In this document: positions 6,356 through 31,602 of the stretch, one piece after another
How the letters are laid out: every line of letters begins with the position of its first letter
How positions within the stretch are numbered: the stretch's first letter is position 1
Assembly (NCBI GenBank): GCA_028554755.1
Contig: JAPTOF010000036.1
Location: 1 to 64,000 of the forward strand
Direction of reading: 5' to 3'
DNA from: Cordia subcordata
Lineage: Eukaryota; Streptophyta; Magnoliopsida; Boraginales; Cordiaceae
Length of the DNA stretch: 64,000 nucleotides
Notes under the pieces: generated by a model
The model's database searches: none
What the model saw: the letters and a program-made list of their open reading frames with translations, nothing else
What the model was told of the DNA's origin: nothing
Translations under genes and position numbers: made by a program

Positions 6356-6398
6356 GCTCTCATAAAATGGGAGCTAGGAGAATTTCTCTCTAGAAATT

Positions 6399-6417
6399 AT
6401 GCTCTCCCTTCTCTCTA
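6399..6417 (+). promoter_or_regulatory. Conserved pyrimidine-rich 5' UTR motif (D)
   Basis: ATGCTCTCCCTTCTCTCTA occurs here about 45 bp from the 5' end of D and, identically, in the 5' UTR of L on the minus strand (22614-22632). A similar stretch is at the 5' end of K (31979-32012). Its place near the 5' terminus of both LINE classes suggests an internal-promoter or transcription-start element; function is inferred. Confidence 0.55.
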
Positions 6418-6755
6418 GAGTTACTACACTCAATTTCCAAACTTTATCTTCTTAAATTCATCTTTCAACCATGCCTAAGAAGAAAATTCACACTTTCTTC
6501 CCGTAAAAGTGCTAGGATCAAGGCTATCAAGGAAAAACTTAAAGAATCCTATGAAGAAATCTCTCAAAATATTAATGAACAAGTAGGAAATGGGGCTGGA
6601 TTTTCTGAAACTTCACATGCCATGGCTGAACATTCATCTTCATCTTTAATGGAGGAAGAGGAGTTTTCAACCAACTCTTGCATGGATCTCAACCAACAAA
6701 GCAACATGGGATTTTCGGCCTCATCTTTTAAGCAAAATGAGCAATCAGCTGCGGC

Positions 6756-6772
6756 AAGTAAGCATTCATCTC
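6756..6772. repeat. Target-site duplication around the E-B composite (other copy 15354-15370)
   Basis: AAGTAAGCATTCATCTC is present at 6756-6772 and 15354-15370. The interval contains two LINE sequences in the same direction (E then B) but only this one duplicated target. Both copies lie in the ORF1 of D. Confidence 0.88.
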
Positions 6773-6999
6773 ATTTTGGCAAAGTTAACATTTATACTAA
6801 AGGGAAATTAAAGTGTTAAAATATGAAGATTTTTCTGTCACTTCTCTCTAAACTTCAGCCAACACGCCACCACACCACCGCCACTCAGCACCAGCAAACA
6901 TTCAACCTCCATTAAAAACCACCACACTCCATCACCACCAAATCTTTCTTCCACCATTTTACCTTTCCTCCACTCTTGCACCAAGTGTTACAAAATTCC

Positions 7000-9326
7000 A
7001 TGGGCAAAAAGAAACGATCCATTGCATCCAAAACTCGTAAGAGTGCAAGACTTGCTGCAAAATCTGAATTTTGCAATTATGAAGAAGAAGAAGATTACAC
7101 CTTGGATTCTATCATGGCGCGCAAAAATTCTTGTGACACCATTAACAAAGTCATGTCAAGCTCCAAGGAAAGGCTTTCTAGTACGGGTAAACTCTTCCCC
7201 TCCTAGCGTTCACGAGCTTGAAATAAACTTGATAATGCAAAACGTGAGCTGGTGCAAAGCTTAGCTCGTAAGAACATTTCAAAACCTAGAGCTTCTGGTT
7301 GTGGTAGTTCAGCAAGTTCGAGTTTTGGCTCAAAAAATTCGCTTGCAAGCAATGACTTCCTTCCATTTGAAGTGTGTGAAAAGCTTGATGATCCTTTGCT
7401 TCAAGAGCTTGAACACAAATCTACAATGGCTGTCCATACGCCATCTTCCTTTTGCCTCAATGATAATACTCCATCTTTAGGTATCACTTATTTCGAAGCA
7501 AAAATGGTGAATATGGTACTCAAAATGATCCTTGTGGCATGGAGAAGAATGTTTTTCCATCCTCTTTTGATAATCAGCCATTAAATATCCAAGGTTCAGC
7601 TCCAAAATTTCATTCGGATGGCTTGGCTTTGGAAGAAATGGCTAGTCAAACACTTCCTGGCAGTCCATGTTCTTTTTCAGTGGGTAATAACCATATGGCA
7701 GATTCCTTTTCAGCTCAAAAGTACACCTATCCAGCCTCTAAAGCTCAGATGTCGACAACTCACCACAAGGCATTAAATGGGAACGCTGCTGCCCCTTGGT
7801 CCAAGCCGAAGAATTACGTTGCTGCTGGGGAAAAGATTTATCCACCATATAACTCGGACCAGATGCATGATGAAGAAAATATCATTGGAAGTGATTTTGA
7901 TTCAAATTTCCCTCACTTGCTCGCCCGGTCATGCCCTACTTTTTTGAGTCAACCTTCCAAACATGACATGGCAGCCAAGTCAGAATCTAAAGCCAGGTCA
8001 GCCCCTTCTCATTTTTATTCCGACAGGAAATTACCTTCAGAAGGTCACTTTGCTCACCTCCAGCAAGTTAACCCCACACAAGCTCATGCAAATGAAAAGC
8101 CACAACAAGCTTCTTCTCAAGGTAAAAGGGCAAATGGGAACTTTGATAACCTTGTGCAGCCAAATCAAAATTCTTCTCTTCAGCAAGCATGGAAATCAAA
8201 TAAGGATTGGCAAGGCACTTTTGTTGATAATCTTTCTCACTCTACAAAGCTTGATTTTGTTGAACCTTTTATTGAGAATGATTTCATAGGAGCCATCCCA
8301 CCCGATGAAGTTTACCTTGAAGGTGATGTTTACTTCAAACATTGCCTTATAGGCCAATTCATTGGAAAACCCCCACCCTTCTTCCTTATTCGGAAAATGG
8401 TTGATGTCCATTGGAAATTGTTTGGTAGAGTTGAAATCAAATCTGCTGAAAATGGGCTATTTGTTTTTAAATTTGAAAATGAAAACTTTTGTGAGCTTGT
8501 TCTTGAACAAATGTGGCATGTAAATCACTGTCCCCTATTGCTTAGACGCTAGGATTCAAATGCTCAACTCATGCACTTTAGTTGGGAAAAAGTCCCTCTT
8601 TGGGTGAAACTCCATAATGTTCCTTGCTCCTTGATCACTAGAAGGGGTCTTAGTTATGTGGCTAGTACACTTGGCATTCCTATTCAAATGGACAAGTTAA
8701 CGGAATCCCGAACCTTCGTGGGATTTGCTCGTGTTTGCATTGAGATGGATCTCTCCAAGAGCCTTCCGGATTTTACATTTGTTAAACTCAGGAATGGAGA
8801 ATGGGCTGGGATTGAAGTGGAGTACGCATGGAAACCCGTGGTTTGTCCATCGTGCAAGATTGTTGGTCATAATCTTTCTTCTTGTCCAAATGCCACTCAA
8901 GTTAATGGTTCCCAACAAAATTCTCGCTTTGTTAAGAAAGAGGGTGACTGGAAAAATCCCAAGTCAAAGACAATATGGAGGAAAGTCAGGAATGTGAATC
9001 ATACACCATTTGCTAGTGTTGCCATCAAGTCAAAAGTTGTTAATGAAGCAAATGAGGAAAATGCCTCTCCGAGCTCCATGGAAGGAAATAGGTTTGCTGC
9101 CCTTAATACATATGAAAATGGTAATGAAGATGCTCCACATGAGGCTCGAGTTGATAAGGATAACTTGAACAAGAACTACATTGGAAATAAAGTTACTAAC
9201 TTTGATGCTGCTGATTTGGAGGATCAAATACTTGGTAATGCCAATGAAGTTCATTTGAATGTAGAACAATGGAACGTTGAGCAAGGAAATAGGGTGGGAT
9301 TTGAAGACCATGGACTCCGGAAATGA
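7000..9326 (+). pseudogene. LINE ORF1 protein, DUF4283 + CCHC knuckle (E)
   Basis: Start MGKKKRSIASKTRKSARL: a basic N-terminus, followed by a long Ser/Ala/Gln-rich linker with the RELVQSLARK motif seen in other ORF1s. A stop at 7204-7206 and frameshifts around 7210 and 7540 break the N-terminal half; from 7539 a 337-residue open frame enters DUF4283 (KDWQGTFVDNL... KHCLIGQFIGKPPPFFLIRKMVDVHW... FVFKFENENFCELVLEQMWHVNH). A TGG-to-TAG nonsense change (8550-8552) separates it from the second part (LMHFSWEKVPLWVKLHNVPCSL). The zinc knuckle [14 protein letters not shown] is at 8844-8885. An acidic tail ends at 9326. Role known for the family: RNA binding and RNP formation in retrotransposition. 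Confidence 0.83.
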
Positions 9327-9459
9327 AGTTGAAGCTTCTTCCCCGAGCAGCCACGAGCTCTTGTTTCTTGTCTTTCCTTGGTGTTCATTTTGTACTCTCT
9401 TTAAGATTGCTGTTACTTTGTTGTATGGTTTTTCCATGTTTCTTTTTGTTTTGATCTTG

Positions 9460-9508
9460 CCCCTCAAGCCGTGATTTGCTTATTTTGTTGTATCTTTGGC
9501 TAGAGGGG
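9460..9508 (+). other. 3' UTR stem-loop of LINE E
   Basis: CCCCTCAAGCC (9460-9470) pairs with GGCTAGAGGGG (9498-9508) except for one position. The arms match the A' version, including the one uncompensated base. Confidence 0.7.
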
Positions 9509-9568
9509 TATTGGGTTGTACTTACAAGTTGCGAAATGAAATACTTACTTAATCCGCAAAAAAAAAAA

Positions 9569-11692
9569 AAGAAGAAAGCTTCATCTCCAACTCGAACTAG
9601 CGCTCGGCTGCATGCAAAGAAGCATAACTTAGCTTCTTCTTCAAATGCTCAAGCTGATTCTTCTTCTCCACAAAAAGAGGTTGATTCGGCTTCTTCACCT
9701 CTTGCAAGTGGAGACGCCCACTCAACCTCTAGTTTGGTTTTGAAGGAAGTTTTTGAAGCTCTTGAGGCAGGTACTCCCTACAATGATCACGTTGAAAAGC
9801 AAAACAAAGCTAAGGCTGAATTGGTCCGAAGCTTATCTTGCAAATCTAGAGCTCGTTCTCCTCCTTCCCCTCGAACAAGCATGGATGTTGGCCCTTGCAC
9901 AAAACAATCTGAACTTGCGTTATCCAAGCTTCTTTTCCATTCTCCATGCCAAAGCTCTACATGCTCAAGCCTGAATAGCCCTATTGGACGTGGTCAGCTA
10001 GGCTACAATGGTGTTTTACAAGAGTTTGAAGCTTTGGTTGAAGGTAGAGGGGAGATGGAAGATAAGTTATTATCCGTTGGACAAAACCTTGAGGACGCTA
10101 TTACCCACGGGTTAAAACACCTCCCTCGTGAAATTGTTGGTAGCTTTTCAGGTCAACCCAACCAAACCTTGATAGCAAAAAAGGGATGTGACACTTTGCA
10201 TGCTGCACTTCAAATTTCAAAAACAGGCCCACGTGAAAATCAAGAGGAGTTCCTCCACTCCCAAGTCCATTAGCTGGTCAAAGTCGGCCATATCAGCCCC
10301 ACACTTTGAAGATGTGGCAGCCACGTTTGGGAAAAAATGCCACGCTGTCAAACAACAAAAGTCAGATTATTTCTTCCATGGGAGAACAACGTGAAGTGCC
10401 AATTTCCAAAGGCAAGGAACACTTCCAAGGTAACTATGCTCCTCAAATTTGTGATAAAGCAAGAAAGTTTTATTCTGGAAAATCAAATTAGCCTAATTAC
10501 AATGCCATTCCAAAAGCATATGAGCATGTTAAGCGACATCAAACACAAGCTTCCAGCCACTTTAATGCATGGAAGAAACCACTTAGGCTTAGATTTGAGC
10601 CTAGTCCAAAGGATCCTTCACCTGATTGGGGGGGTATCTTTGCTGAAAACTTGGATAAAACTCTCAAATTTGAGGAAGAGCATGTTGTTGAATTAGTAAA
10701 TGGTAATAGAGAAGTGGCTGATCCTCCAGAAAACTTGTACGAAGAAGGGATTAATTTTTGGAAGCATTGTCTTGTGGGACAATTCTTAGGAGCTCCCCCA
10801 CCCTTCTTTCTTATTAAAAATATGGTTGAGTTAGTTTGGAAGAAATTTGGCAAGGTTGAAATACATTCAAAAGGAAAGGGTCTCTTTATTTTCAGATTTG
10901 AAAAGAAGAATTTTGTCAAAAGATTCTCCAACAACTTTGGCATGTCAACCATAGGCGACTCTTGTTGAGGAAATGGGAACCAAATCTGAGTTTGTTAACT
11001 TATCATGCAAAAAAGTTCCCATTTGGGTGAAGCTTTGGGAGGTCCCAATGAGCCTCTACTCTAAAAGAGGACTTGGATATATTGCCTCTTTCATTGGAAA
11101 GCCAATCCAAATGGATGCCCTCACGGATTCAAGAAGAAATTTGGATTTTGCAAGAGTTTGTATTGAAGTTGATTTGGAAGAGAACCTTCCGGATGTGGTT
11201 TATCCAAAACTCAGCAATGGTTCAAAGGCTAAAGTTATGGTAGAATATGCTTGGAAACCATCTAAGTGCTCTCATTGCAAGATGGTTGGACATGTGGAGG
11301 AGCAATGCCCACTTAAGCCAAAAATTCAACCACTAAGGCCAATTGCAAATCAGGCCACTAAGACTCATTTTGAATGGCAAGCCGTGAGTAAGAAAGCCCC
11401 ATTGAAGTCAAGTAATGCTCCAAACAACTTCCAAGGTGAAGGTTCTTCTTCAAAGGAAAAGGCGACTTCTCCAAGCCATTCTTTAGTTAGGGTTCCTCTT
11501 GACCCCTCAAGCTCTAAAATTTCGCACTCCAATCACTTTGAGATACTTGGTCATGAGGGAGAAATTGGAGATGAAGATACAAGACTTCTTGACCAGAATA
11601 GTAAGGAGGAAGAATTGGGTAATTTTGGCACTCCAAATGCAAAAAGCAACCAGGTATCCGAGCCAAGTGCTCCTCCTTTACCTCCTCAATGA
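9569..11692 (+). pseudogene. LINE ORF1 protein (two-ORF class, element B)
   Basis: N-terminus KKKASSPTRTSARLHAKKH resembles MAKKKKGSSPSRHSARISAK of L and differs from the MPKKKNHTSSRKSARI start of the ORF1-only class. The first frame ends at 10273 (frameshift), passes through a poorly conserved linker, and re-enters DUF4283 at 10651 (NLYEEGINFWKHCLVGQFLGAPPPFFLIKNMVELVWKKFG). Another frameshift at about 10960 separates it from the last 239 residues, which are open from 10973 and include VPIWVKLWEVPMSLYSKRGLGYIASFIGKPIQMD. Knuckle CSHCKMVGHVEEQC is at 11267-11308. The end, SAPPLPPQ, is followed by a TGA that overlaps the ORF2 ATG. Confidence 0.83.
11689..11692 (+). promoter_or_regulatory. ATGA overlap of ORF1 stop and ORF2 start (B)
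   Basis: TGA at 11690-11692 ends ORF1, ATG at 11689-11691 starts ORF2 (MNFCSWNIRGLN). L has the same arrangement at 20447-20450. Such overlaps suggest translation of ORF2 by termination-reinitiation; this is inference. Confidence 0.75.
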
Positions 11693-14600
11693 ATTTTTGC
11701 TCATGGAATATTAGGGGGCTAAACTCCCCAAAGAAACAAAAGGAAGCTGCATTTTTATCAATAAACACCACTTGGACATCTTGTGTCTTTTGGAAAACAA
11801 AGTGGTTAGTGATAAAAATATCAAAGCTATTAGTACTCTTTTTAGAAAGTTGGTTTTTGGCTACTTTGATGATCTTACCAAGGGCGGATTTGGCTTTTTG
11901 GTAGAAAGGAATTAAAGCTACTTTGATTGACTCTTGTGTTAATGCTTTGCTCTTTCATTTTGATGATCACATTCATACGCCTTTCTTTGTTGCCTTCATT
12001 TATGGACACAATGAAGCTTCAAAAGAATTGAACTTTGGAGAAAACTTGAGCTTTGGTGTACTTGGTGTGAAGAAAGTGTGCTTTGTCTCTTGGGGATTTC
12101 AATGAGGTTTTGCAAAGTGGTGACAAATCAAATACTTATGCCACTCCAAAAAGTGCTGGTGCCTTTCAAAACTTTGTGGCAAAAGCAAAGTTGCAAGAGG
12201 TTAATACACATGGACCACGCTTCACTTGGTCAAATAAGAGCAATGATGAAAATTACTTGGCTAGCAAGCTTGATAGAGCCTTCATCAACGAATATTGGAT
12301 GCATCATTACCATCTCTCCTTTCTTTTGGTTGCTAGTCCCGGTGTTTCCGATCATTGCCCACTTATCATGCATACTTGTAAGTCTTGGAAATCCTCACCT
12401 AAACCCTTCAAGTTCTATAATGTGTGGACTTCTCATATGGATTTCCTTAAGCTTGTTGAAGAACATTGGTGTACACGGGTCTTTGGTACACCAATGTACA
12501 TCCTCTACCAAAGCAAAAGCATTAAAACTTGCTCTTAAATCTTTTGATAAAGAGCATTTTGCTGCCATTCCGTATGCCATCAAAAATCTTAGGGAAGAGC
12601 TTGAAATTGTTCAATACTCTATCCTTAATGGTCAGCAAAATTATTCTCTCATTGACATGGAGAAATCCATTTTGAGCAAATTGGAGGAGCTTGAAGGAAA
12701 GCAAAAAGCCATGCTTTTCCAGAAGTCAAGACTAAATTGGATCAAGGAAGCAGATGCCAATACAAAATTCTTCCATAATGTGGTTAAAGGAAGGAAGCTT
12801 AAAAACACCATCCATGCTATCAAGAATGAGAATGGTCACATTCTCCTTGAAGAAGATGAAGTGAAAGAGGAATTCATTGGCTATTTTAAGAAGCTTCTTG
12901 GTGTTGAATCCCCCTCAAGCATTAATGTCGATCTTTTGAAAAATATTATTGACAAGCAAATTGATCATGAAGTTGCTGCCACAATCATTGCTCCTATCAC
13001 CGATGATGAAATCAAGAATGCACTTTTCTCTCTCAACCCAAACAAAAGCCCGGGGCCGGATGGCTTCACATCCCATTTTTACAAGATTGCATGGGAGATT
13101 GTTGGGAAGGACGTCCTTGGAGCAATCAGATCCTTTTTTGATTCAAGCAAGCTTCTTAAAGAGGTAAATGCCACAATTATCACTCTTGTGCCTAAAAATC
13201 AAAATCCTTCTATGGTCAAGGACTATAGGCCAATTTCTTGCTGCAACACCATTTATAAATGCATCTCCAAGATCATTGCAAATAGGTTTAAGGGTTGCTT
13301 ACCTCATATTATTTCTTGAAACCAATCAGCATTCTTGAAAGGTAGACTCATCCATGAGAATATCCTCATTGCACATGACATCATGAGAGGCTATCAAAGA
13401 AGACATATTTCCACAAGATGTGCATTTAAAATTGATATTATGAAAGCTTTTGACTCCTTGAACTGGGTTTTCATTGAATGCACACTTCTTGCTTTTGGTT
13501 TCCCCAAAAAGTTTGTGGATTGGATCATGGCTTGTGTTAAAACTCCTAGCTTCACCATTGCCATTAATGGAGGTTTGGAAGGTTTCTTCTCTGCAAATGG
13601 CATTAGGCAAGGAGATCCTATCTCCCCTTATCTCTTTGTCCTTTGTATGGAGGTTCTTACATGCATGCTTAACAACTTGGCAAACAATCCGAGATTTCAA
13701 TTCCACCCAAAATGCGGAAGCATCAAGCTTAATCATCTTTGCTTTGTGGATGACCTCCTTATCTTTTGTAAAGGGGACATAAATTCTATTGATTGCATCA
13801 TGGATACTTTGAAGGCTTTTTCTACTTACTCCGGGCTGAATATTAGCAAGGCTAAGAGTGTTATCTTCCTTGGTGGAGTTCCAAATGAGGAGAAACGAGT
13901 GATCATGGATAGAATTGAGTTCCAAGAAGGTGAGCTACCAATCCGATATTTGGGCATCCCACTTGTTTCAAGAAAGCTAAGAAGGAGTGATTGCTGTACT
14001 CTCTTGGAAAAAATCAATCTAAAGCTTCACTCTTGGTGCAACAATTGGCTTTCCTTTGCTGGAAGACTTGTGCTTATCAAATCGGTCCTTACCCAAATTT
14101 GTGCTCATTGGGCAAACGCATTCCTTATGCCTAAAGGAGTTATGGCAGCCATTGAGACAAAATTCAAAGCCTATTTATGGATATGAACTGGTCCTAAGGT
14201 GGCTTGTAAGAACATTTGTCTTCCATTCAAGAAGGGAGGTCTTGGAGTCCGAAACATTAAGGAGGTTAACTTAACCTACATGCTGAAAGTCTTTTGGAGG
14301 ATGTATGCAATTAAAGAAACACTTTGGAGTCAATGGGTTCAAGCAAATTATATTAAAGACTCTTCTATTTGGAATGTACAAATACCCAAGGATGCAAGTT
14401 GGATTTTCAAAGCACTACTTGGCTGCCGACCTTTTGCAAGTCGATTCCTCAAGCACAAAGTTGGAAATGGAGCAAACACTTTCTTTTGGAGTGATAATTG
14501 GCACAAGGATGGTTCTCTCTTGGAGCATTGGACCAATGCCATTCCACATCCACATCTTCATGCTAAGGTATGTGAGATCTTCATTGAAGGTTCTTGGAAT

Positions 14601-15267
14601 TGGCCAATGCATCTTTCCCATGTTGATATTCCAGATTTTTGTCTTGATGAAAACACTATGGATAGAATCTCATGGAATCTCTCCCCAAGTGGTTGCTTTT
14701 CTTTCAAACACACTTGGGAAAGTATTCGAAGAAAAGGTTCTTATTTTGAAGGGTCAAATCTCATTTGGCACAAGAAGCATAATCAAAGCATAGCTTCATT
14801 GTTTGGCTTGCATTCCATGATCGTCTTAACACAAAATTCAGACTCTTGCATTGGGGGCTTCTCATTAATCCATCATGTATCTTTTGTAATTTGGGTTGTG
14901 AGACCAGAGAGCATCTCTTCTTTGAATGTTGTTTCACAAGGAGGATTTGGAGAAAGGGCTTGAAACTTACCCTTGTTCCGGAAAATCTGATTTGTTGGCA
15001 AGATATTACTGATTTTCTCACTCCTTTCGCCCTTGAAAAGCATTTGAAGGCCACAATTCTCAAGCATCTTCTTGGGGCAGCCATCTACCACATTTGGATT
15101 GAAAGGAATCAACGCATCTTCAAAAATCAAGCAAGAACCGAGAGTCCATCTTTGATACTCTCTTTAATGATGTTAGAGTAAAACTCTCAAGTGGTGGCAA
15201 AATTCAATCTTCTCCATTGAACAAAACATTATGTAAAATGTGGAGACTTGAAGATATCATTGTTTAG
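11689..15267 (+). pseudogene. LINE ORF2 polyprotein: endonuclease, reverse transcriptase, zf-RVT (B)
   Basis: Order of domains: apurinic-type endonuclease (start MNFCSWNIRGLN; LGDFNEVLQ near 12086; FTW; SKLDRAFIN; GVSDHCPLI near 12345, the catalytic Asp-His pair), then RT with SPGPDG (13047-13064), KDYRPISCCNTIYKCISK, KIDIMKAFDSLNW, GIRQGDP (13599-13619) and the catalytic box FVDD (13743-13754, Val in place of the Ala seen in L), then the thumb (LPIRYLGIPLVSRKLRRSDC) and zf-RVT (CIFCNLGCETREHLFFECCF, about 14878-14937), ending RLEDIIV at 15267. It is broken by frameshifts around 11760-12080, at 12530, by a stop at 13318-13320, by a stop at 14184-14186 and by frameshifts near 14780. Length is close to that of an intact plant LINE ORF2. 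Confidence 0.86.
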
Positions 15268-15355
15268 GTTGTCTTTTTTTCCTTCATTTTTTTTGTACAT
15301 GTACATTTTTTCTTGAAGTAATCCAAATTCCTTACTTACTCCGCAAAAAAAAAAA

Positions 15356-16808
15356 GTAAGCATTCATCTCCTCAAGCTCAAGTTTATTTTGAAGATTTGG
15401 ATAAGAAAATTGAAGAAGCTAGAAAAATTTGCCCCCCCTCAATTGGTTTGGGAAAATTCCTTGAGGAAAAATACAATATCTCCAAGAAGGAACTTGTGCA
15501 AAGTTTGTCCAGAAAAAGTCGTGAAAGATTAGTGCCAAAAGAAAATGATGATTTGCATTCTCATCTTCAAAATGTGGAGAACATTTCTCATGCTTCAAAA
15601 TCTGATTTCCATCATTCTAATATGAACGAAAATGAACTTCAAATCAGCAAAAACACTTGGCTTCTATTTGTGCTGAAATGCATCTTGCAAACGAGCTTGT
15701 CTCTTCTCCAACTCAAAATGCAATTTCTCATGGTCAAAACCATGCTATTTTGCTTGAAAATTTTGTTGCAAATGCCCAAAATTTCAGCCATGGAAGTTCT
15801 GGTACGATTGAAGAAGATGGAAAAGCAAACTGGTTAATACCCAATGGTTTCTCGGTTGGTAAGGTACATGACAAACCTGATTTTGCAGCTACTTTTTCAG
15901 GCCAAAAGGACCTCTTTTCTGCCTCCCCACACCATAAAATGACAGCACATCTCTCAAATTCCAATGTGGGAGGCCCACCACTCAATTTGAATCACACTTT
16001 TGATGCTAACCTAGAAGAATTTCCCCTTTGTGTATTCAGCCGAGTGGCAAATCTGCTGGTCCATGTGGCTTTGAACATGGAACATATGTGGCTGCCACAT
16101 CATTTAATGATGCCACTTCACCTATGCAAACAAATCAGCAAAGCTCTTCCCAGAATCAATACCAAAATGGCTCCTCTTTTGGCCAACAAAAGCGTTCAGC
16201 CTCTTCATCCATGTCAGCTCCTCCTTTTGACATGGCTGCCACTTATGACTCTTTAAAAAATACTTGTCATTCTCCACATGTTCCAAATGGAAATGACCTC
16301 CAGCAAGCTCCTCAGCGTTTAATCAACCAAAATCATGTCCTCTCCCATGGACATCTCCATGCAATTTCAATTGGTCAAGAGCATCATATTCAAGGAAATC
16401 ATTACACCTCAACTCCTCTCTTTTCTCAAGGAATTCATGAACCAAATGGAGGAAGTTTTTGTGACCAACTTCAGCAAAATACTTTTCTACATCCCAGCCA
16501 GCAAGCACATCATTTCAAGCTCCCCTTCAACACTCGGCATGGGCATCAAATTTGGATTGGAAGGACCATCTCGTAGGTAACCTCATGCATTCTCTTAAAC
16601 TTGATTTTCATGAGCCTCTTGTTGAAAATGGAAGAATAGGGGCTGCCCCACCAAGTGATGTCTTTGAAGAGGGTGATGGGCATTGGAAACATTGCCTCAT
16701 TGGCCAATTCTTAGATAGGCCTCCCCCATTTTTTCTCCTTAGGAAAATGGTTGATAATCATTGGAAAAAATTTGGCAAGGTGGAGATTAAATCGGCTGAG
16801 AATGGGTT
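15356..16808 (+). pseudogene. LINE D part 2: central ORF1
   Basis: Continues the D ORF1 after the E-B insert: PQAQVYFEDLDKKIEEARK, LGKFLEEKYNISKKELVQSLSRKS, then a Ser/His/Gln/Asn-rich linker that changes frame near 15650, 16030 and 16550, and finally the first half of DUF4283 (VGNLMHSLKLDFHEPLVENGRIGAAPPSD, KHCLIGQFLDRPPPFFLLRKMVDNHWKKFG). It is cut at AENG by L at 16808 and continues at 22661. Confidence 0.8.
16793..16808. repeat. Target-site duplication of LINE L (other copy 22661-22676)
   Basis: CGGCTGAGAATGGGTT is present at 16793-16808 and 22661-22676. Left copy is followed by the poly(T) of L, right copy is preceded by its 5' UTR. Removing L plus one copy restores the D ORF1 reading AENGF(F)VFKFEN. 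Confidence 0.9.
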
Positions 16809-16878
16809 TTTTTTTTCGCGAAGAAAGTGAGATTAAGATAAAAGGAAGTACGACACAAAAGAGGCCAAGGAGGCAGCC

Positions 16879-19800
16879 CTATACAAGAATATCTTCAAGC
16901 CTCCAAGATTTGCAAAGAGATTTGTTAATACAAGAGGAAGTAAATTTCCTTCCCATGGAACATTTTAGCCTAATATGATTTACAATGGACGAGAAAATAT
17001 GCTCTTCAGTTTTAAATACTTTGCTGAATTCTCTGTTGTTCCTTTCAATCCAAATGTGATAAATTGTGGCTCCACCAAGTGCTTCAAGATAGTTGCTTTG
17101 AGACTCTTTTCAAGAGCAAAGGGTGTAATGTATGCCAAGATATCATCCCAATTTGTCAAATTTGTGTGAACCATAGTGAGTTGAAGTCCCGCTTCCAGAT
17201 TCTTTTGGTGAAGCAACAATCAAAGAAAAGATGATTTCGAGTTTCACTTCCCATGTTGCAAAAGATACAAGTAGGATTGATATCATTCCCCCAAGAAAGT
17301 AATCTGAATTTTGTGTTGAGCCTATCCCAAGAAGCAAGCCAGCAAATGAAAGCATGTTTTGGGGTGTGTCCCTTGAACCAAACGAGATTGTGCCATTTTG
17401 CCTTTTCTTTTTTTGCTCTGAAATGCTCCCAAGTATGCTTGAAACTAAAAGTGCCGTTTGGGGAGAGATCCCAAATGTAAGAATCAGCATTTTCCTCATT
17501 AAGGAGAAAGGGGGGAAGATCGACATGCAAAAGATGAATAGGCCAACTCCAAGTGTGGTGATGAAAAACATCACTAACCTTTGCAAAGTAATGTGGTGAA
17601 GGGAAAATGGAGCTCCAATGGCTGTCAAGAATTCCCCTCGGATGCCATTTATCGTGCCAAAAAAGAGTGTTTTTCCCATCTCCCACGGAATGGGTGATAA
17701 GATTCCTTGCAATGTCACGGCATCTAATCAGCATTTTAAGAATCCAACTAGCATCTTTTGGAGTGGTGATGGTCCAGATTGATTTATTCTTGATATAATT
17801 CAAATGAACCCATTTGCTCCAAATTGATTCCCTCCATGAATACATTCTCCAAAAATCTTAAGAAGTGAGATGGTATTTAGGTCCTCAATTTTCCGAACAT
17901 TTAGCCCCCCCTCCTCAAATGGGAAACAAACATCCTTCCAAGCAATTTTTGCACCTGTGTCCCGCCATAAGAAAGCCTTGAATTTTGATTCAAGGGTTGA
18001 GATAATACCTTTTGGGAGTAAGAGAATTCCAGCCCAGTAGGAACAAATTTGGGTAAGGGTTGTTTTAATGAGAAGCAATCTACCCGCATATGAGAGCCAT
18101 TTCGTGGACCAATTATCAAGTTTACTAACAATTTTCTCCAAGAGAGGTGCAAAATCGGCTCTTCTAAGTTTTCTTGAAATGAGAGGATGCCCAAATACCG
18201 GATTGGAAGAGATCCTTCTTTGAAACCCACTTTAGAGAGGATGGCAAGTTTTTCATCATTTGGGACTCCTCCAAGAAATAAATCACTCTTAGTCTTTGCT
18301 GACTTTAAGTCCCGAAAGGGCATGAAACTTTTCAAGGATTTCCATGATGCATTCCACCGAACTCAAATTCCCCTTGCAAAAGATGAAAAGATCGTCGGCA
18401 AAGCAAAGATGATTAAGCTTCAATTTGGCGCACTTAGGGTGGAAGTCAAAGCCGCTATCATTTTCCAAATTGTTAAGCATACAAGTGAGGGCTTCCATAC
18501 ATAACACAAAAAGATAAGGAGAGAGGGGATCACCTTGTCTAACACCATTTGCTCCTTTGAAGAAGCCTTGAAAACTACCATTGATAGCAACAGTAAAGCA
18601 AGGAGAGGAGACAGATGCCATGATCCAAGCAACAAATTTTCCCGGAAATCCAAATGCCAAGAGAGCATTTTCAATAAAACTCCAACTAAGAGAGTCGAAA
18701 GCCTTCATGATGTCAATCTTGAGAGCACATCTAGGAGAAATATGGCTTCTTGAATATCCCCTCAGGACTTCATGTGCAACAAGAATATTTTCATTGATAA
18801 GTCTATCCTTGATAAAAGCAGATTGATTCCATGAAATAATCTTTGGAAGACATGCCTTGAGTCTATTTGCAAGTAATTTGGAAATGCACTTGTAGATGGT
18901 GTTGCAGCAAGAGATTGGCCTAAAATCTTTTACCATAGAAGGGTTTGAGACTTTTGGCACTAAGGCAATGTAAGTGGCATTTACCTCATTAAGGAGCTTT
19001 GTGGAGTCAAAGAAAGAGCTAATGGCTTCCAAAACATCATCTCCAACAATCCTCCATGCAGCCATATAAAAAAGAGATGTATAACCATCCGGCCCTGGGC
19101 TTTTGTTCGGATTGAGAGAGAAAAGAGTGTTCTTGATTTCCTCATGGGTAAAAGGTGCCACCAGCAAATTGATGCAATCCTCATCATTAGATTTCCCAAC
19201 GATAGCTTTGATGGAGTCAATATTTGCACAAGTCCGGAAAGGGGTACCAAGAAGGTTTTTGAAGAATGAAATGAATTCCTCCTTAATATCTTCATTTGAA
19301 GAAATAAGGGTACCATTCAGATCTTGGATAGCATGAATAGTGTTCTTCCTCTTCCTTCCCTGAATAGTGCTATGAAAAAACTTTGTGTTTGCATCACCAT
19401 CTTTAATCCAATTGAGCCGAGATTTCTGGTGCAGCATATGATTGAAAGTGGCCTCAAGAGCTTCAATTTTAGCCAAAATATCTTTCTCCATATCAAGAAT
19501 TCCATCATTGAGAAGACCATTCATCAAATCGGATTGCACATTACAAAGCATCTCCTTGAGTGCGTGAATCTTTTGAGGAATGCAAGAGAAGTGCTCTTTA
19601 TCAAACTTCCTTAAAGCAAACTTGAGGCGTTTTTGCTTTTGATACAAAATGAACATTGGAGTGCCAAAGACCCATGCACTCCAATGATCTTCCACAATAT
19701 GCAAGAATTGATCATATGAAACCCAAGCATTATAGAATTTGAAAGGCTTTGGAGAGGACGGATTGGGCTTACAAGTGTGAAGGATGAGCGGGCAATGATC

Positions 19801-20450: not shown

Positions 20451-22524
20451 GAGGGTGGAAGAGGAAGGGGATCCTCTTGATGTGTGCTTTGAGCTAAGCT
20501 TGGTTCAGCAACGAATTCTCCTTCCTCGGGATATTTGGTGGAGCTTTGATCTCTCACTATCATCTTCAAGGACTTGAAATTTATTTTGATGTTGGGGCTT
20601 TTGAAATGATCCATTTGCATTTCTGATTTGTTTTGGAGAGCTTGGCCTAATGGGATCAGCCATCTTGCTTGAAGAATTTGTGTTGCTTGCTTTCTCAAAG
20701 TTTGGTGCATTTCTATCATTTGTTGAAGGTTTTTTCCCAATGACTTGCCAATCCTCTTGCTTCTTTTGCTTAGGTTTTGAAATCAATGGTTGATCATGAG
20801 AGTGTTGATCAGCCAGTTTCATGGGACATTTATCCACCATATGGCCCACCATTTTACAATGTGAGCATTTTGAAGGCTTCCAAGCATATTCAACCTCAAC
20901 TTGGGCTCGGAACCATCTCTAAGCTTAGGAAAACAGCATCCGAGACTTTCTTCCAAATTTACCTCAATGCAAACTCTTGCAAATTCAAGATTTCTTTTTG
21001 ATTCAGTCAAGGCATCCATTTGAATAGGCTTACCAATGAAGGAAGCAACATAGTTTAATCCTCTCTTTGACCAAAGACTCATTGGAATATTCCATAACTT
21101 AACCCATAATGGGACTTTGTTACAATTCAGATTAATGTACTCAAGATTTGGCTTCCATTTCCTTAGAAGCAAAGGCCTATGGTTCACATGCCATAGTTGT
21201 TGCAAAACCTTTTGACAATGTTCTTCTTTATCAAATTTGAAGACATACCAGCCCTTTCCCTTTATGATCGATGTCAACGTTGCCAAACCTTCTCCAAGCA
21301 AAGTCAACCATGTTTTTGATAAGAAAGTAAGGTGGTGGGGCGCCAATAAATTGGCCAACTAAACAATGGGTCCAAAGTTTGTCCCCTTCATCATATAAAT
21401 CATCCGAGGGGTCGACCACATCCCTAACCCATTGATGATTTTAACTTCCATTTCATCATCAAATTGAAGATTTGTGCTAATAAATTCAGCAAAGTCCTTT
21501 CCCCAATCAAGAGATGGTGTCTTAGAAGTAGGTTCAAACCTGATTTTTGGTGGCTTTTTCCAAGCATTTTGTTGTGCATTTTGTTGAACATTTTGATGTG
21601 AGGCTCTTTTATTTTCAAGTGCACTCTTCTCCTCCCAATCCTCATTTTTGAAATACGCATATGTTGGCTGAGTAGTGCAAACACGAGCTGCTTCTTCATT
21701 TGGAGGAGGGGGCTGAGTTGGTGTGCTTGCTGAAGTGTCCTTATAGAATGACATGGCAGCCATGTCATCTCGGTTGTGGACCCCTTTTTCCTTTGCTGAA
21801 AGTGAGCTATTAAGTGGAGGGAAATTTCCCTCAAAAGAGCCGAAATCTTGTGAAAGACAAAATGCACCAACCTTTGCTTTGGATCTTGGGAATGAGCTGT
21901 CAACTTTTGTGGAGTTTTGGCTGCAAAGAGGCTGTCAAAATCAGAAAAAGCATGCTCCTCTTTTCTCCCAGGGTTAATATCCAAAGCATGTTTGTTCTGA
22001 CCAGCGTGTAAAACCCCTTCTTCAACCTCTTCTTCCTTCAAGCCCGAAGCTTCTAAGTTGCTTGCATGAGTGTTTTCAGAACCCTTTTGAAACTTTGAGA
22101 GGACCCTAGGGCTAGAAGATGCTTGAAACTTAGTTGGTGAACCGAGATGCTTTTGTGAATAATCCTTAACCTCAAGATTTTCGTTTGAAGAGGAAATGGA
22201 GCCCTTGCTAGGGGGAGATAATGATCGAGCTTTCCTTGAAAGAGATTTCACGAGCTCAAGCTTTTCTTTGTCTTTCTCCATTTGTAGAGCTTTGAAAGTT
22301 TTCCCCGACTCAAAAGCAACAAAGGCTTCACGGAGTTCCTTGCTTGAGGTTGATGAAGCTTCTTCATTCTCGTTCTCAAGAGGAGAAATAAAAGACGCTG
22401 AATCAACCTCCTCAAGAATGACTTTTGTGTTTTTTCCCGAAGATGAACATTCCTTAGCTTGAATCTTTGCTGAGATACGTGCACTATGCCTTGATGGAGA
22501 TGATCCTTTCTTCTTCTTTGCCAT
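20447..22524 (-). pseudogene. LINE ORF1 protein (two-ORF class, element L)
   Basis: Start MAKKKKGSSPSRHSARISAKIQAKE at 22524, basic as in the other ORF1s. The first open frame (366 residues, to 21424) is a Ser/Glu/Lys-rich linker with KLELVKSLSRKARSLSPPS, but its last part is shifted; an overlapping frame (21763-21359) holds the proper continuation. DUF4283 follows in two frames (YDEGDKLWTHCLVGQFIGAPPPYFLIKNMVDFAWRRFG, then VLQQLWHVNHRPLLLRKWKPNLEYINLNCNKVPLWVKLWNIPMSLWSKRGL). The zinc knuckle ends GHMVDKC near 20810-20850. The tail ends DPLPLPPS with TGA at 20449-20447 inside the ORF2 start codon. Confidence 0.83.
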
Positions 22525-22660
22525 GGAAATTGCTTAGTAGAGAAGTAAGTAAGAAAGAGAAAGGATGAGACAGGTGGTGTATGTGGTTGAAGGAAGGCCG
22601 AGTGCAAAGTGTGTAGAGAGAAGGGAGAGCATTTCGGTTCAAGAGAGAGAAAGTTTTTTT

Positions 22661-23763
22661 CGGCTGAGAATGGGTTCTTTGTTTTTAAGTTTGAAAATGA
22701 TGAGTATTGCAATCAAGTTATGGAACAACTTTGGCACGTTAATCACCGGCCTCTCTTATTAAGAAAGTGGGATGCTAATGCACAAATGATAAACTTTGGA
22801 TGGGAAAAAGTGCCACTTTGGGTCAAACTTAGAAATGTTCCATGCTCACTTATCACTCAAAGAGGTCTTAGCTACATTGCAAGTACTATTGGCATACCAT
22901 TACAAATGGATAAGCTTACGGAATCACGTACCTTTGTTGGTTTTGCAAGAGTGTGTGTGGAAATGGATCTTTCAAAGTCTCTCCCTGATCACACCTATGT
23001 GAAATTAAGAAATGGGGATTGGGCCAAAATCGACATTGAATATGCATGGAAGCCTCTTGTTTGCCCTTCTTGCAAGATTGTTGGACACTCCATTTCTACG
23101 TGTCAAAATGGTCCACCAAAAAATGCTCCTAGGCAAGCACCTAAAGTGATTGAAAAGAAGAATGATAATTGGAAAATGGCAAAGATTAGAAGAGTGTGGA
23201 AGAAAGTTGAGAATTTTAATCCTACCCCATTCTCCAATGTGGTGGTTAATTTGGTTCAAGCTCCAAGTTTGGCAAAGAATCCAGCCCCTATTGTTGAAGA
23301 AAAGTTGGAAAATAATCGTTTTGCGGTCCTTAAAGCAAATGAAGGCACATCAAAAGTAAAGGATGATTTGATAAAGAGTGATGAAGAAAATGTCATGATC
23401 CAAGAAAATGACACAAATGTTGCTGATTTGGACGCCCAACAACATGAAAATCAAAATGAAGTGCAATTGATTGAAGATAACTTGAGTGTTGAGCAAGATA
23501 GATGGGAAGGGAATATTGGGAACACACTTGAAGGCTCTCGGACCAGACTTGAACATCCTAATCCTACCCCATTTGATGTGTTTCGAGACTTGATTGGATC
23601 TCTCTTTATTGTTTTTCTTCTTGGGATTTCCCTTTTGTTTTGATTTGCTTACCCTCAAACTTGTCTTGCTTTGTAATGTTGTATCATTTAGTTTGAGGGT
23701 TTGGATGGTGTTGTACTGAATTTTGCGCTTAATAAAAATCTTACTTAATCCGCAAAAAAAAAA
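22661..23763 (+). pseudogene. LINE D part 3: ORF1 C-terminal half, 3' UTR, poly(A) (unit 1)
   Basis: Open from 22609 through 23643. It begins inside DUF4283 (FVFKFENDEYCNQVMEQLWHVNHRPLLLRKWDANAQMINFGWEKVPLWVKLRNVPCSL), then SYIASTIGIPLQMDKLTESRTFVGFARVCVEMDLSKSLPDHTYVKLRNGDW and the knuckle CPSCKIVGHSISTC (23062-23103), and an Asn/Glu-rich tail. In units 2 and 3 an extra C before the end creates a stop right after NPTPI, probably the original end; unit 1 reads 24 residues further. The 3' UTR has a perfect 10-bp stem (23651-23660 with 23691-23700), terminal motif CTTACTTAATCCGC and poly(A) 23754-23763. There is no ORF2. Confidence 0.85.
23651..23700 (+). other. 3' UTR stem-loop of LINE D (unit 1)
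   Basis: ACCCTCAAAC (23651-23660) pairs perfectly with GTTTGAGGGT (23691-23700). Also present in units 2 and 3. Confidence 0.8.
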
Positions 23764-24755: not shown

Positions 24756-25035
24756 TTTTTTTTTGCGTGAAAAGTGAAAAGCACTATATTAATTACAAAA
24801 GAAGTACATGAGAGTCAAAAGAAGGGGAAGCTCAATCCAATATAGCCTCAATTCCCAATTCTTACAAATGATTTTGTTGATACAAGAAGAAGTGAAATGC
24901 TTCCCAATTGAACACTTAATTCGAACATGGTTGAAGATGGATGAAAAGATTTGCTCTTCCGTTTTTGCTCCTTTGCTAAATTGCCTATTGTTCCTTTCCA
25001 ACCAAATGAAATAAATTGTTGCTCTGAAGATATGC

Positions 25036-25052
25036 TTGATGAGTGTTGCTTT
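25036..25052. repeat. Target-site duplication of LINE H (other copy 25521-25537)
   Basis: TTGATGAGTGTTGCTTT is repeated exactly at 25036-25052 and 25521-25537. Units 2 (40736-40752, 41222-41238) and 3 (56458-56474, 56949-56965) keep the same pair. Confidence 0.9.
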
Positions 25053-26878: not shown

Positions 26879-26925
26879 TGAATTTTGGGTGATGTTTTTT
26901 TGCGGATTGAATTTTGGGTGATGTT
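26879..26925 (-). mobile_element. Tail-only LINE insertion: 18-bp TSDs flanking 11 bp (unit 1)
   Basis: TGAATTTTGGGTGATGTT occurs at 26879-26896 and 26908-26925. Between them are 11 bases, TTTTTGCGGAT, whose complement is ATCCGCAAAAA: exactly the last bases and poly(A) of the LINE family here. It looks like a LINE insertion truncated to its terminal motif. Unit 3 has the same 11 bases (58325-58335); unit 2 has 8 (42599-42606). Confidence 0.75.
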
Positions 26926-28030
26926 CCAAGCCATTAAATAATGATGAGAGGACTTCCATGCATAAGACAAAAATATAAGGAGAGATGGGGTCACCTTGTC
27001 TTATGCCACTTGCTCCTTTAAAGTATCCTTCAAAACTTCCATTGATTGAAATGGTGAAGCTAGGAGTTGTGATACAAGCCATAATCCACTTAACAAAGGT
27101 GTCGGGAAAACCAAATGCATAAAGTGTAACTTTAATAAAGTCCCAACTAAGTGAGTCAAAAGCCTTCATGATATCAACTTTAAGGGCACATCTTGGTGAG
27201 AAATGAGTTCTACAATATCCTCTAAAAATATCATGTGCAACAAGAATGTTCTCATTAATAAGTCTTCCTTCAATGAATGCGGATTGGTTCCATGAAATGA
27301 TGGAAGGTAAGCAAACTTTCATCCTATTTACAAGGATTTTGGAAATGCACTTATAAATCGTGTTGCAACAAGAAATGGGTCTAAAGTCCTTTACCATGGT
27401 TGGATTTTGGACTTTAGGGACAAGAGCAATATAAGTGGCATTTACCTCCTTAAGCATCTTCCGAATTCAAAGAGTTGATGGCCTTGAGTACATCTTCTCC
27501 CACTTTGTTCCATGCATTTTTGTAAAAGAGTGAAGTGTATCCATCCGGCCCTGGGCTTTTGTTGGGGTTGAGAGAAAAAAGAGTACTCATAATTTCTTCC
27601 CGAGTGATAGGAGCAACCAAATCAGCCAAGTATTCCTCCTTGATGGTTTTGCCAAGAATGCTTTTGACGTTGTCTTCATTATCTTGGGTGCTTTTCGGAG
27701 TTCCAATTAACTTCATGAAAAAGGATATAAACTCTTCCTTAATGCCATCGTAAGAAGTAATAGTGTTCCCATCTTTATCCTTAATGGCATTGATAATGTT
27801 TTTCCTTCTTCTCCCTTTGACAACATTGTGAAAGAAATTTGAATTTGTGTCCCCATACTTGATCCATTGAAGCCTAGACTTTTGGTGGAGCATATGCCTT
27901 TGAATGCTGTCAAGTTCCTCAATTTTTCAAGAATATCTTTTCCTTGTTGAGAATTTCCTCACTGATAATCCCATTGAGAATGTCAACTTGCACTTCTTGG
28001 AGATTATCCTAGACTTTTGAGCATATCCCG

Positions 28031-28123
28031 TTTATTTGTTGTATCTTTGACTTGGAGGGTTATGAATGGTTTGTTCCAAAATTGTGATAGAATTAAATTT
28101 CTCACTTACCCAGCAAAAAAAAA
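28031..28123 (+). mobile_element. LINE F right part: hairpin arm, terminal motif, poly(A) (unit 1)
   Basis: Continues F after G: GTTGTATCTTTGACTTGGAGG, the right hairpin arm (28049-28060), the motif CTCACTTACCCAGC and poly(A) at 28115-28123. Unit 2 reads CTTACCCCGC at the same point, closer to the consensus. Confidence 0.75.
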
Positions 28124-29499: not shown

Positions 29500-30145
29500 T
29501 CTCAGATAAGCTTGCTGCTTGTTCTCTTAATGGAGCTCGTTCTACTCCTCTTGTCAAGGAGAATATTAATCTAATTTCTCAAGATGGTAACGAGCAACCT
29601 GATCCTTCAAAATGTGCTATCTGGTCGTAAAAGCTTGAGCTTGAAGGAAAGAGAAGATCAGTCTTTGCACAATGGTCAAATGCATTACTTGGAGGTTCTT
29701 ACTGACACGGCTGCTACTTTTCCAGCAAATAGGAGTACTTTTGGCAGCCCTTGCAATCCACATTCGACACCTCATTGTACCAACTCTGAAGTGGGATGCA
29801 AAGACGTCCATCTTTAAATTCAAATCCTGAATTTTTCACCTCTGTCGTGAAGCTCTTTGACCGTCCAAATCAGTCTTCCATTTCTAACAAAATGGCCCAT
29901 GCTTAGCCGAATACTTCTCAACTTCAAAATGCATAAGTGGAAATTGATTCCTACTCACATGCCAACTTGGATTCCAGTCCAACCTTGTAGCCAAATCACT
30001 TTCCACCAAAACAAAACTCAATTTCGCAGCAAGCTGCAAACAAGTTATTCTTTCTACAATCTCGGCTGGAACAACTCCCCCACTTGAGAATGCACAAGGA
30101 GCTCTTTCAAGCTCATCTCAACGGCAAAATGCAGCAAAATATGAT

Positions 30146-31395
30146 TTGGATTTTTCTTCATTATCTCAAGCAAATGCTGGACATAAATCTCACAAACTGC
30201 CCACTCAACAAAATCAACAAGACCAGGCTTCTCATGATGAAAATCAAGGCCATTCTCAAGCTGAAATGCCACATCCAGCAGGGAATAATGATGAAAAATG
30301 GAAGCAAGTTTGTTTAGGTAAACTCCATAACTCTAGAAAACTTGAGTTTTATGGTCCTATTGTTGAAAATGGAGTCATTAGTGCAACCCTTCCTTGTGAT
30401 GTTTTCAAAGAAGGGGATGAACTCTGGAAAAATTGTTTGATTGGCCAATTCATTGGTAAACCCCCCGCCTTTCTTCCTTATTCGTAGAATGGTTGATATG
30501 CATTGGAAAATATTTGGTAAAGTTGACATTAGAACGGCTGAAAATGGGTTCTATGTGTTTAAGTTTGAGAATGATGATTTATATGAGCTCGTTATGGAAC
30601 AAATGTGGCACGTGAATCACCGCCCTCTCTTGCTTGGAAGATGGGATGCAAATGCTCAAATGATTAATTTTCGTTGGGACAAAGTTCCTCTATGGGTGAA
30701 ACTTAGAAACGTCCTATGCTCACTCATCACTAGGAGGGGATTAAGCCACATTGCTAGTACTTTGGGCATGCCACTACAAATGGACAAACTTACGAGTCAA
30801 GATCATTTGTAGGATTTTCTAGGGTATGTGTTGAAATGGATATTTCAAAAGAATTGCGGATCACACTTTTGTTAAACTTAGGAATGGAGATTGGACCAGA
30901 ATTGAGGTAAAGTATCCATGGAAGCCTCTTGTTTGTTCAAGGTGCAAAATTGCTGGTCATTCCCTTGCCATGTGTCCAAATGCAACCATTCAAAATGGCC
31001 TAAAAGTTTGTCCCTCAAGGTGAAAGAAAGAAAGTTGATGAATGGAGGGGTGTCAAAACAAAGAAAATATGGAAAAGAACACACAATGTGGATGCAACAC
31101 CTTTCTCAAGTGTAGTGCTCACTCCAAGCACCAATCAAGCTTCTATTTCGGAAATTAAGCCTTGGCCTCATCACAACAAATTCCCTTGGAAAATAACCGG
31201 TTTGCTACCCTTAATCCAATTGAAGAAGATATGAATGGAGTTGAAAATAGGCCTTTGGTTGAGAAGGACGAAGATGAAATGCCCGCCTACCACCTTGAAG
31301 AGAAAAATGAAGAACCTGTTAGAATGGAACAGTTTGAAGGAAGAAGTAATAAAGATCGGTTGAAGAATGTTGATGCTCCCCCACTTCCTCTTTGA
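30146..31395 (+). pseudogene. LINE ORF1 protein, DUF4283 + CCHC knuckle (J, unit 1)
   Basis: Frame from about 30146: Gln/His/Asn-rich linker, then DUF4283 (LGKLHNSRKLEFYGPIVENGVISATLPCDVFKEGDELWKNCLIGQFIGKPP). A frameshift at 30470-30485 leads to 30441-30812 (FFLIRRMVDMHWKIFGKVDIRTAENGFYVFKFENDDLYELVMEQMWHVNHRPLLLGRWDANAQM). A base missing at 30795 and one at 30856 break unit 1; unit 2 is intact there and reads on through the knuckle CSRCKIAGHSLAMC (30934-30975 in unit 1) to 46737. A further frameshift precedes the acidic tail (NNRFATLNPIEEDMNG... DAPPLPL). Same family role as the other ORF1s. Confidence 0.83.
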
Positions 31396-31490
31396 TCTCT
31401 TTTTGTTGTTTTTTTTTTATGATTTTGTTTATTGTTTTGTTGACTTTTGTGTTTTGCAGTTTTTTAACTCCTTAATTGTGATTTTTTCTT

Positions 31491-31542
31491 ACCCCTCAAA
31501 CCTCGTCTTGGTGTACAATGTTGCATCCTTGGTTTGAGGGGT
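31491..31542 (+). other. 3' UTR stem-loop of LINE J (unit 1)
   Basis: ACCCCTCAAACC (31491-31502) pairs perfectly over 12 bp with GGTTTGAGGGGT (31531-31542). Units 2 and 3 have lost one C from the left arm. Confidence 0.8.
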
Positions 31543-31602
31543 TTTGATTGGTTTGTACCATATTTGCGATTAATCTAAACTTTCTTAATACGCAAAAAAA
31601 AA

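Follow-up and report, generated by a model that had tools for sequence, protein, structure and literature searches.

Two classes of nested LINEs at the start of the contig

The window analyzed here, 64,000 nucleotides (nt) at the start of a 405-kb contig in the genome assembly of Cordia subcordata (472 Mb in 62 contigs), is occupied from position 1 to about 32 kb by a stack of nested long interspersed nuclear elements (LINEs) of the plant L1 type, which fall into two classes. Class I elements (A0, A', D, E, J and M, with K and G partial) consist of a first open reading frame (ORF1), a short 3' untranslated region (UTR) with a hairpin, and poly(A), and class II elements (B, L and five further 3' ends) carry ORF2 followed by a short 3' UTR that lacks the class I hairpin (Table 1). 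An earlier reading made from the letters of the window only (the sequence-only reading) had proposed that several copies run from ORF1 through a stop codon and 3' UTR into poly(A) with no ORF2, and this structure is borne out in A', D, E, J, M and A0. The ORF1-only copies also have target-site duplications (TSDs) of their own, as had been claimed, of 25 nt in A', 16 nt in D and 12 nt in J. The named database relatives of the window ORF1 are plant proteins, and the content of the window is therefore plant-like.

The assignment of both ORF1 and ORF2 to B and L, made in the same reading, is supported by domains and homology. These two elements show the marks of plant L1-type LINEs, namely an ORF1 with DUF4283 and a knuckle, ORF2 domains, poly(A) and TSDs. 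In Pfam, DUF4283 scores above the cut-off in one piece of B, RVT_1 in B and L, and zf-RVT in L. Below the cut-off, Exo_endo_phos is found in B and zf-CCHC_4 only in the class I pieces D and E, to whose knuckle the knuckle region of L and B is homologous.

All A or T tracts of at least 8 in the window were surveyed, and only unique elements are counted, as a 15.7-kb unit repeats from 22.5 kb. Eighteen tracts lie within 1-32.1 kb, 14 of them LINE 3' ends and 4 of them T runs inside UTRs. The class I tail is matched by 7 of the 14 ends (A0, A', D, E, J, M and G), with an ORF1 end directly upstream in six; the seventh, G, is a tail fragment. An ORF2 C-terminus lies directly upstream of all seven other ends (B, L, F, N, O, P and Q), and the probability of this split of 6/6 versus 7/7, calculated by hand, is 1 in 1716. 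A covariance model of the class I tail, built from five ends (A0, A', E, J and M), gives at least 38 bits for the seven class I ends and for six segmental copies of J, D and G, and the other window 3' ends score at most 23 bits or are not listed. Premature polyadenylation was considered as the source of class I tails and rejected, since ORF2 of B appears to start right at the end of ORF1; in a check of this idea, no match of the hairpin model is listed at the ORF1/ORF2 boundary of B.

The sequence-only reading also held that the ORF1-only copies have a 3' UTR of their own, and this agrees with the presence of a hairpin at a fixed place in six tails (A0, A', D, E, J and M), with a stem of up to 12 base pairs and a loop of 27-30 nt, ending 48-52 nt before the poly(A). 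After alignment of the stems by hand (the automatic aligner had moved D by a single base), pairing is seen in 68 of 72 cells over 12 positions, a value matched in 1 of 10,000 column shuffles; compensatory changes on both sides mark 6 of 12 pairs, matched in 3 of 10,000. The loop holds a conserved UGUUGUAUC-like stretch. Folding z-scores against 100 mononucleotide shuffles range from -1.30 (D) to -5.16 (M) in class I and from -1.05 to 1.68 in the shorter class II stretches. Rfam returns no match at the gathering score. In M, the 3' hairpin is doubled head to tail in tandem (4338-4530), with the stems paired in both copies.

The last 14 nt before the poly(A) are related across the classes, reading CTTACTTAATCCGC in three of the seven class I ends, one to a few changes from it in the remaining ones, and CTTACTTACTCCGC in B; moreover, a 5' UTR block, ATGCTCTCCCTTCTCTCTA, is common to D (class I) and L (class II). 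A 13-nt micro-insertion at 26879-26923 (minus strand ATCCGC plus seven A), read by eye between copies of a 16-nt TSD, tgaattttgggtgatg, is an extreme 5' truncation that exposes the outermost 3' end of its template.

Class I tails in the genome

Does an ORF2 lie between ORF1 and this 3' UTR elsewhere in the genome, as it would if the window copies were exceptional members of a two-ORF family? The sequence-only reading had raised this case against itself, and none is seen among the scored copies. Each genome search was scored for its best candidates: 40 of 444 for a query made of the DNA of the E ORF1 end plus 3' UTR (E-type), 40 of 260 for the last 110 nt of D (D-type), 122 of 5288 for ORF1 and 150 of 6936 for ORF2. 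In the D-type set, which includes some segmental copies of D, 39 of the 40 tails have ORF1 directly upstream, which coordinates show for 31 and sequence for 8; the remaining one is a tail only, and the spacing from ORF1 match to tail is 64 or 3 nt in most of the 31 coordinate-paired copies.

For the E-type set, 39 of the 40 candidates were taken with about 3.3 kb upstream, and ORF1 is clearly upstream in 29 of 40. In nineteen (L031-L048 and the window copy), the alignment to E covers ORF1 and continues into the UTR; among these, L031 is a segmental duplicate of the window, and L034 and L037 have the same flanks. Ten more (L049-L054, L056, L058, L059 and L069) have ORF1 at nearly the E spacing. 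L066 and L067 have an ORF1 with another class I tail in between, and nine of the 40 are truncated or unresolved. No sense ORF2 match ends within 600 nt of the poly(A) in any of the 39 stretches; the nearest, at 641-764 nt, precede truncated copies and are read as target DNA.

This arrangement extends to more distant copies. Twenty further class I ORF1s, 58-82% like D and picked by hand from the 122 for diversity, run into a hairpin tail in 18 cases, and the other two (L088 and L093) have no tail within the stretch. None of the 20 has an ORF2 between ORF1 and tail, the ORF2 of L080 starting past the poly(A), in the target. Sixteen other class I tails in the fetched stretches have no ORF2 match upstream; ORF1 matches stand at varying distances in seven, and nine are without a match, some having little upstream sequence. 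In what is a weak test, the 1500 nt upstream of each of 80 tails contain no end of any of the 150 ORF2 matches. When ORF2 is taken as the starting point, eight genomic ORF2 ends are followed by 3' UTRs about 61-68 nt long (the open frame shows this for seven; in L104, which is frame-broken, the UTR is similar by eye). Here the tail model gives three weak matches of 20-24 bits (L100, L102 and L105) and a 71-bit match in L101 on the opposite strand. Stop-free frames of up to 1205 codons run through the ORF2 match, within the same islands (see below) as class I. A protein search with the A' N-terminus gave no matches, and searches of viral and genome contigs gave no relatives.

Recent insertion of the E family

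Class I elements have inserted repeatedly as units. Nine E-family copies have TSDs of 13-19 nt, and since L034 and L037 have the same flanks these represent eight independent insertions, on several contigs. Most copies begin with a common 5' block, GAGTTTTTCTCTCTCTAG.... The window copy of E must be 5'-truncated near its start codon, because the genomic copies have this other common 5' end; the start at 6773 that had been proposed for E is not upheld, and 6773 to about 7012 reads as 5' UTR and start of B. In L036, L040, L042, L046 and L047, some 10-25 nt precede the 5' block, perhaps nucleotides added at the 5' junction.

The E family has been active recently, and its nine long copies are 97.5-98.6% identical. 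ORF1 is open in three of them, with 776 codons free of stops and gaps in L046 and L047 and 773 of 776 in L044. At about 2.6 kb, the copies fall outside the definition of short interspersed nuclear elements (SINEs), which are short and have no coding ORF. A codon comparison that excluded L031 and L037 finds 218 single-base codon differences, of which 197 are private and near neutral (0.80 of opportunity) and 21 are shared (0.43 of opportunity), a difference between the two groups that is not significant (p = 0.20).

Selection and relationships of ORF1

Over DUF4283 and the knuckle, the class I ORF1s of the window are 64-82% identical in amino acids, and the ratio of nonsynonymous to synonymous substitution rates (dN/dS) is 0.07-0.19 in the five pairs with finite dS; the D-E pair is saturated. 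Comparison of the intact L046 with 12 copies of other subfamilies gives 0.07-0.28. The ratio is well below 1 between subfamilies, the sign of purifying selection for which the sequence-only reading had asked; the ratios are rough because dS is high throughout, and the proportion of nonsynonymous differences (pN) is far below that of synonymous ones (pS) in all ORF1 comparisons.

Class I is a diverse lineage. In an unrooted ORF1 tree, the split between class I and class II is fully supported, and P0001, a protein from an ENA contig, groups with class I. Moreover, the junction from ORF1 end to UTR is common to E and A', which are the closest pair, with an alignment score of 58 against a maximum of 28 in 200 shuffles; more distant class I pairs have T-rich UTRs and weaker junction matches. 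Because E and A' have this junction in common, the ORF1-only state probably predates their split, at a dS of about 1.4. Together with the fixed place of the hairpin, the common junction speaks against an origin of the copies by unrelated independent deletions, the second case that had been raised.

A chimeric insertion at A'

The 25-nt duplication around A' shows 162-4109 to be a single minus-strand insert, in which a directly oriented class I part (poly(A), 3' UTR and ORF1) is followed by 1.2 kb of inverted ORF2. The inverted segment meets the duplication with a common ATTTTC microhomology (3' junction of the alignment). The proposal that "A" (the ORF2-like stretch at 2920-4271) is a further ORF1-only element therefore stands in part: it applies to A0 (1-161 and 4135-4271), and 2920-4109 is instead the inverted ORF2 end of A'. 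The alternative of one two-ORF element that ends in a class I 3' UTR was likewise considered for "A" and rejected, since the flanks of the A' insert reveal two elements.

LINE-1 copies fused to antisense pieces of other RNAs have been described as possible twin priming in a mammalian survey (PMC13174262, from excerpts). The structure of A' is such as twin priming would leave if the second primer had annealed to another RNA, and on this basis a single event probably copied two RNAs, one with ORF1 only and one bearing ORF2.

Both classes lie in chromosomal islands

Where do the two classes reside in the genome? On the 16 contigs of at least 7.5 Mb whose length was at hand (C7 excluded), 79 of 80 ORF1 matches (80 of the 122 scored) lie in one 1-Mb stretch per contig, as do 108 of 111 ORF2 matches; 51 of 54 class I tails lie in the same kind of stretch on 12 contigs. 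The islands are found in mid-contig or close to a contig end. On contigs C1, C12, C23, C34, C45, C60, C61 and others, both LINE classes lie almost wholly in one island of about 1 Mb, and at C34:14700765-14712228 four ORF2 matches of equal score stand about 3.6 kb apart, perhaps a tandem array of a LINE-bearing unit.

Excerpts from other plants describe LINEs of centromeric regions, namely Celine in poplar (PMC11288735), Nanica in banana (PMC8423783) and LINE1 in yellowhorn (PMC8647845). The placement in one island per contig is like that of these centromeric LINEs, and the islands are putative centromeres.

Layout of the window

The coordinates of the elements are collected in Table 1. D was inserted into N, whose ORF2 homology picks up again past the right TSD of D (23779 on). 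The N-terminal type MPKKK..SSRKSAR, which had been ascribed to the ORF1-only copies, does not extend to E, which has MGKKKRSIASKTRKSARL. K had been listed as a probable ORF1-only element with a tail; its N-terminus is indeed of the class I type, and the window holds no 3' end for it. K is interrupted by non-LINE sequence at 32658-38248, possibly a retroelement with long terminal repeats. From 22550 to 64000, the 15.7-kb unit is repeated in tandem in about 2.7 copies, mostly at 99-100% identity, and contains part of D, J, K and non-LINE DNA. The later copies of J, K and D are therefore not independent, and those of J at +15.7 and +31.4 kb are segmental. More copies of the D end are present on the same contig at 70.8 kb and on contig C10.

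Table 1 Positions and contents of the LINE pieces in the window, by coordinate.
Feature	Class	Position	Strand	Content	TSD, poly(A) and remarks
A0	I	1..161	+	ORF1 end (stop 127-129), start of 3' UTR	Host of A'
A' insert	I	162..4109	-	Two parts, see next rows	25-nt TSD 137-161 / 4110-4134
A', direct part	I	176-2919		ORF1, hairpin 3' UTR, poly(A)	
A', inverted part		2920-4109		ORF2 segment, reverse transcriptase to zf-RVT	From another LINE RNA
A0, continued	I	4135..4271	+	Remainder of 3' UTR; stems 4169-4180 / 4209-4220	poly(A) 4272-4283
M	I	4338..4957	-	ORF1 C-terminus, 3' UTR	poly(A) 4328-4337
N	II	5658..6355	-	ORF2 C-terminus, hairpin-less 3' UTR	Target of D
D, piece 1	I	6356..6772	+	5' UTR, ORF1 start	Host is antisense class II ORF2; 16-nt TSD AGATGGAAGCTAGGTG 6340-6355 / 23763-23778
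B, start	II	6773..7012	+	5' UTR, first ORF1 codons	E breaks in; boundary inferred
E	I	7013..9557	+	ORF1 with one internal stop, hairpin 3' UTR	poly(A) 9558-9570; near start of B ORF1; 5'-truncated near start codon, exact base uncertain, 5' boundary inferred
B, remainder	II	9571..15344	+	ORF1 (DUF4283), ORF2 (endonuclease, reverse transcriptase and zf-RVT homology), short hairpin-less 3' UTR	15-nt TSD; poly(A) 15345-15355
D, piece 2	I	15371..16806	+	ORF1 middle	B (TSD GTAAGCATTCATCTC) breaks before, L (TSD TCGGCTGAGAATGGG) after
L	II	16807..22659	-	ORF1, ORF2	15-nt TSD TCGGCTGAGAATGGG 16792-16806 / 22660-22674; poly(A) 16807-16816
D, piece 3	I	22675..23753	+	DUF4283, CCHC knuckle, stop, 3' UTR hairpin (stems 23650-23661 / 23690-23701)	poly(A) 23754-23763
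G	I	28010..28114	+	Tail fragment, left stem unpaired	Model score 38 bits
J	I	29500..31593	+	5'-truncated element	12-nt TSD ATCTTCAATCTT 29488-29499 / 31603-31614
K	I-type	31976..32657	+	5' UTR, ORF1 N-terminus	Boundaries by eye

A model for movement in trans

How does an element that codes for no reverse transcriptase move? We propose, with a probability of about 0.83, that class I elements are non-autonomous LINEs that code for the ORF1 protein (ORF1p) only and are moved by an ORF2 protein (ORF2p) acting in trans, most likely that of class II; class I would thus very probably borrow the enzyme of its two-ORF relatives. The RNA would start from a 5' UTR related to that of class II and be translated into ORF1p, which may package it, and it would then be copied by target-primed reverse transcription with ORF2p supplied in trans. 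Class II elements of the same chromosomal islands are the most likely donors, and the A' chimera as well as the islands common to both classes are consistent with movement in trans by a related L1 ORF2p. The 3' hairpin may be the signal that allows an RNA without ORF2 to capture ORF2p or ORF1p, and a role in RNA export or 3' processing would be an alternative. What is unexpected is that the hairpin occurs in the apparent dependants and not in their presumed donors.

A further step would be that the LINE has split into two replicon types, such that a diversified, long-lived ORF1-only lineage uses the hairpin as a trans-capture signal in place of cis preference and feeds islands that are putative centromeres; we put this forward only tentatively and regard it as somewhat doubtful.

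Several observations weigh against the proposal of movement by class II in trans. The hairpin is absent from the seven class II 3' UTRs of the window and from eight genomic ones, and its recognition by class II ORF2p is thus not obvious. Identity of the ORF2 segment of A' to the ORF2s of the window is no higher than 68.5% (B) and 66-70% (L). A third measure of covariation in the hairpin, the number of pair types, is matched by 9102 of 10,000 shuffles. In the E family, L034 and L037 lack the start of the 5' block, and in several of the nine copies about 10-25 nt of other sequence stand between TSD and block. ORF1 comparisons between class I and class II also give a low dN/dS (0.16-0.35 where finite), and dS is near saturation in all comparisons. 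Class I forms one branch in 40% of bootstrap trees with distant outgroups and in 21% with two outgroups. Finally, the genome figures cover the best candidates of each search.

Could class I elements instead be deletion derivatives of an extant two-ORF family that has the same hairpin 3' UTR and supplies the ORF2p, and thus by-products rather than a lasting lineage? An ancestor with an ORF2 is likely, since the class I ORF1 is homologous to that of class II, and such a family might lie outside the best-scoring candidates. However, no ORF2 stands between ORF1 and tail in the readable cases, which number 39 of 40 for the D-type set, 29 of 40 for the E-type set and 18 of 20 for the more distant ORF1s, the scored ORF2 matches end near none of the 80 tails (the weak test above), and the junction common to E and A' argues against by-products, and we consider this origin unlikely. 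The common structure of the copies also bears on whether 5' truncation, internal recombination or assembly errors in nested repeats could mimic ORF1-only elements. Nesting and tandem repeats in the region would favor such an explanation, but eight independent insertions with matching TSDs and a common 5' block on several contigs, and the spacing of 64 or 3 nt in most coordinate-paired D copies, make it extremely improbable.

The distribution of the copies addresses yet another origin, in which class I elements are processed retrocopies of domesticated LINE-ORF1 host genes that class II has moved, such that the selection seen is that of the host genes. A host source gene would be expected outside the islands, where only one of the 80 ORF1 matches on the 16 large contigs lies. 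Although the low dN/dS and the structure of poly(A) and TSDs would fit retrocopies too, the copies have in common a LINE-type 3' terminus before the poly(A) and a LINE-type 5' UTR block, their hairpin has a fixed place, and they comprise many subfamilies with a recent burst in one. We therefore rate an origin from host genes as very unlikely and retain the proposal that class I elements are ORF1-only LINEs moved in trans.

Comparison with known systems

The sequence-only reading had likened these elements to HAL1 (half-L1) of mammals, which derives from an L1-type LINE, codes for ORF1p only and is non-autonomous (PMC5753468, from excerpts), with machinery likely supplied by L1 (PMC4161310, from excerpts). 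The likeness holds as an analogy, in that class I has an ORF1p homologous to L1-type ORF1p and lacks ORF2 as a family (among the best candidates). It does not hold as family membership. Mammalian L1 ORF1 is of the coiled-coil type (ORF1 types I and II; PMC4120745, from excerpts), whereas class I has a DUF4283/CCHC ORF1, a 3' hairpin not found in the ORF2-bearing relatives seen, diverged subfamilies side by side and an island distribution. The DUF4283 ORF1, with its named relatives among plant proteins, does not indicate descent from mammalian L1. Because host and ORF1 type differ, class I is HAL1-like and not HAL1, and its origin would be independent. A second precedent is HeT-A of Drosophila, which belongs to the Jockey clade of LINE-type elements, encodes a Gag/ORF1 protein but no reverse transcriptase, and needs the enzyme of another element. 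HeT-A lengthens telomeres in head-to-tail arrays, whereas class I elements are nested copies with TSDs.

Among plant LINEs, Celine resembles class II in being nested and in having an ORF1 with DUF4283 and an ORF2 with endonuclease and reverse transcriptase (PMC11288735). It is a two-ORF element of which copies with broken ORFs are called nonautonomous, and the excerpted text mentions no ORF1-only family. The term ORF1 is absent from the main text of the banana (PMC8423783) and yellowhorn (PMC8647845) papers, and no description of a plant ORF1-only LINE family was found in aimed searches of the open-licence literature, mostly at listing level. For the hairpin, the excerpted account of a plant L1/SINE stem-loop (maize and sorghum lineage in ME1) reports that the last 45 nt are conserved and common to LINE and SINE (PMC3747384). 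The class I hairpin is likewise conserved, near the 3' end and marked by compensatory changes, but its end lies 48-52 nt before the poly(A), its loop measures 27-30 nt, and the presumed donors do not have it.

A plant case of ORF1-only LINEs

ORF1-only LINEs are already known from mammals (HAL1) and flies (HeT-A). A recent, diverse and coding-competent plant case would show the ORF1-only route arising again on a different type of ORF1, and it would make it possible to tease apart what ORF1p and ORF2p each contribute, along with cis preference and 3' recognition. The hairpin, with compensatory changes and seen only in elements without ORF2, is a concrete candidate for the signal involved. Class I accounts for as many 3' ends in the window as class II does (seven each), and should the islands prove to be centromeres, a large share of the centromeric LINEs of a plant could parasitize the rest.

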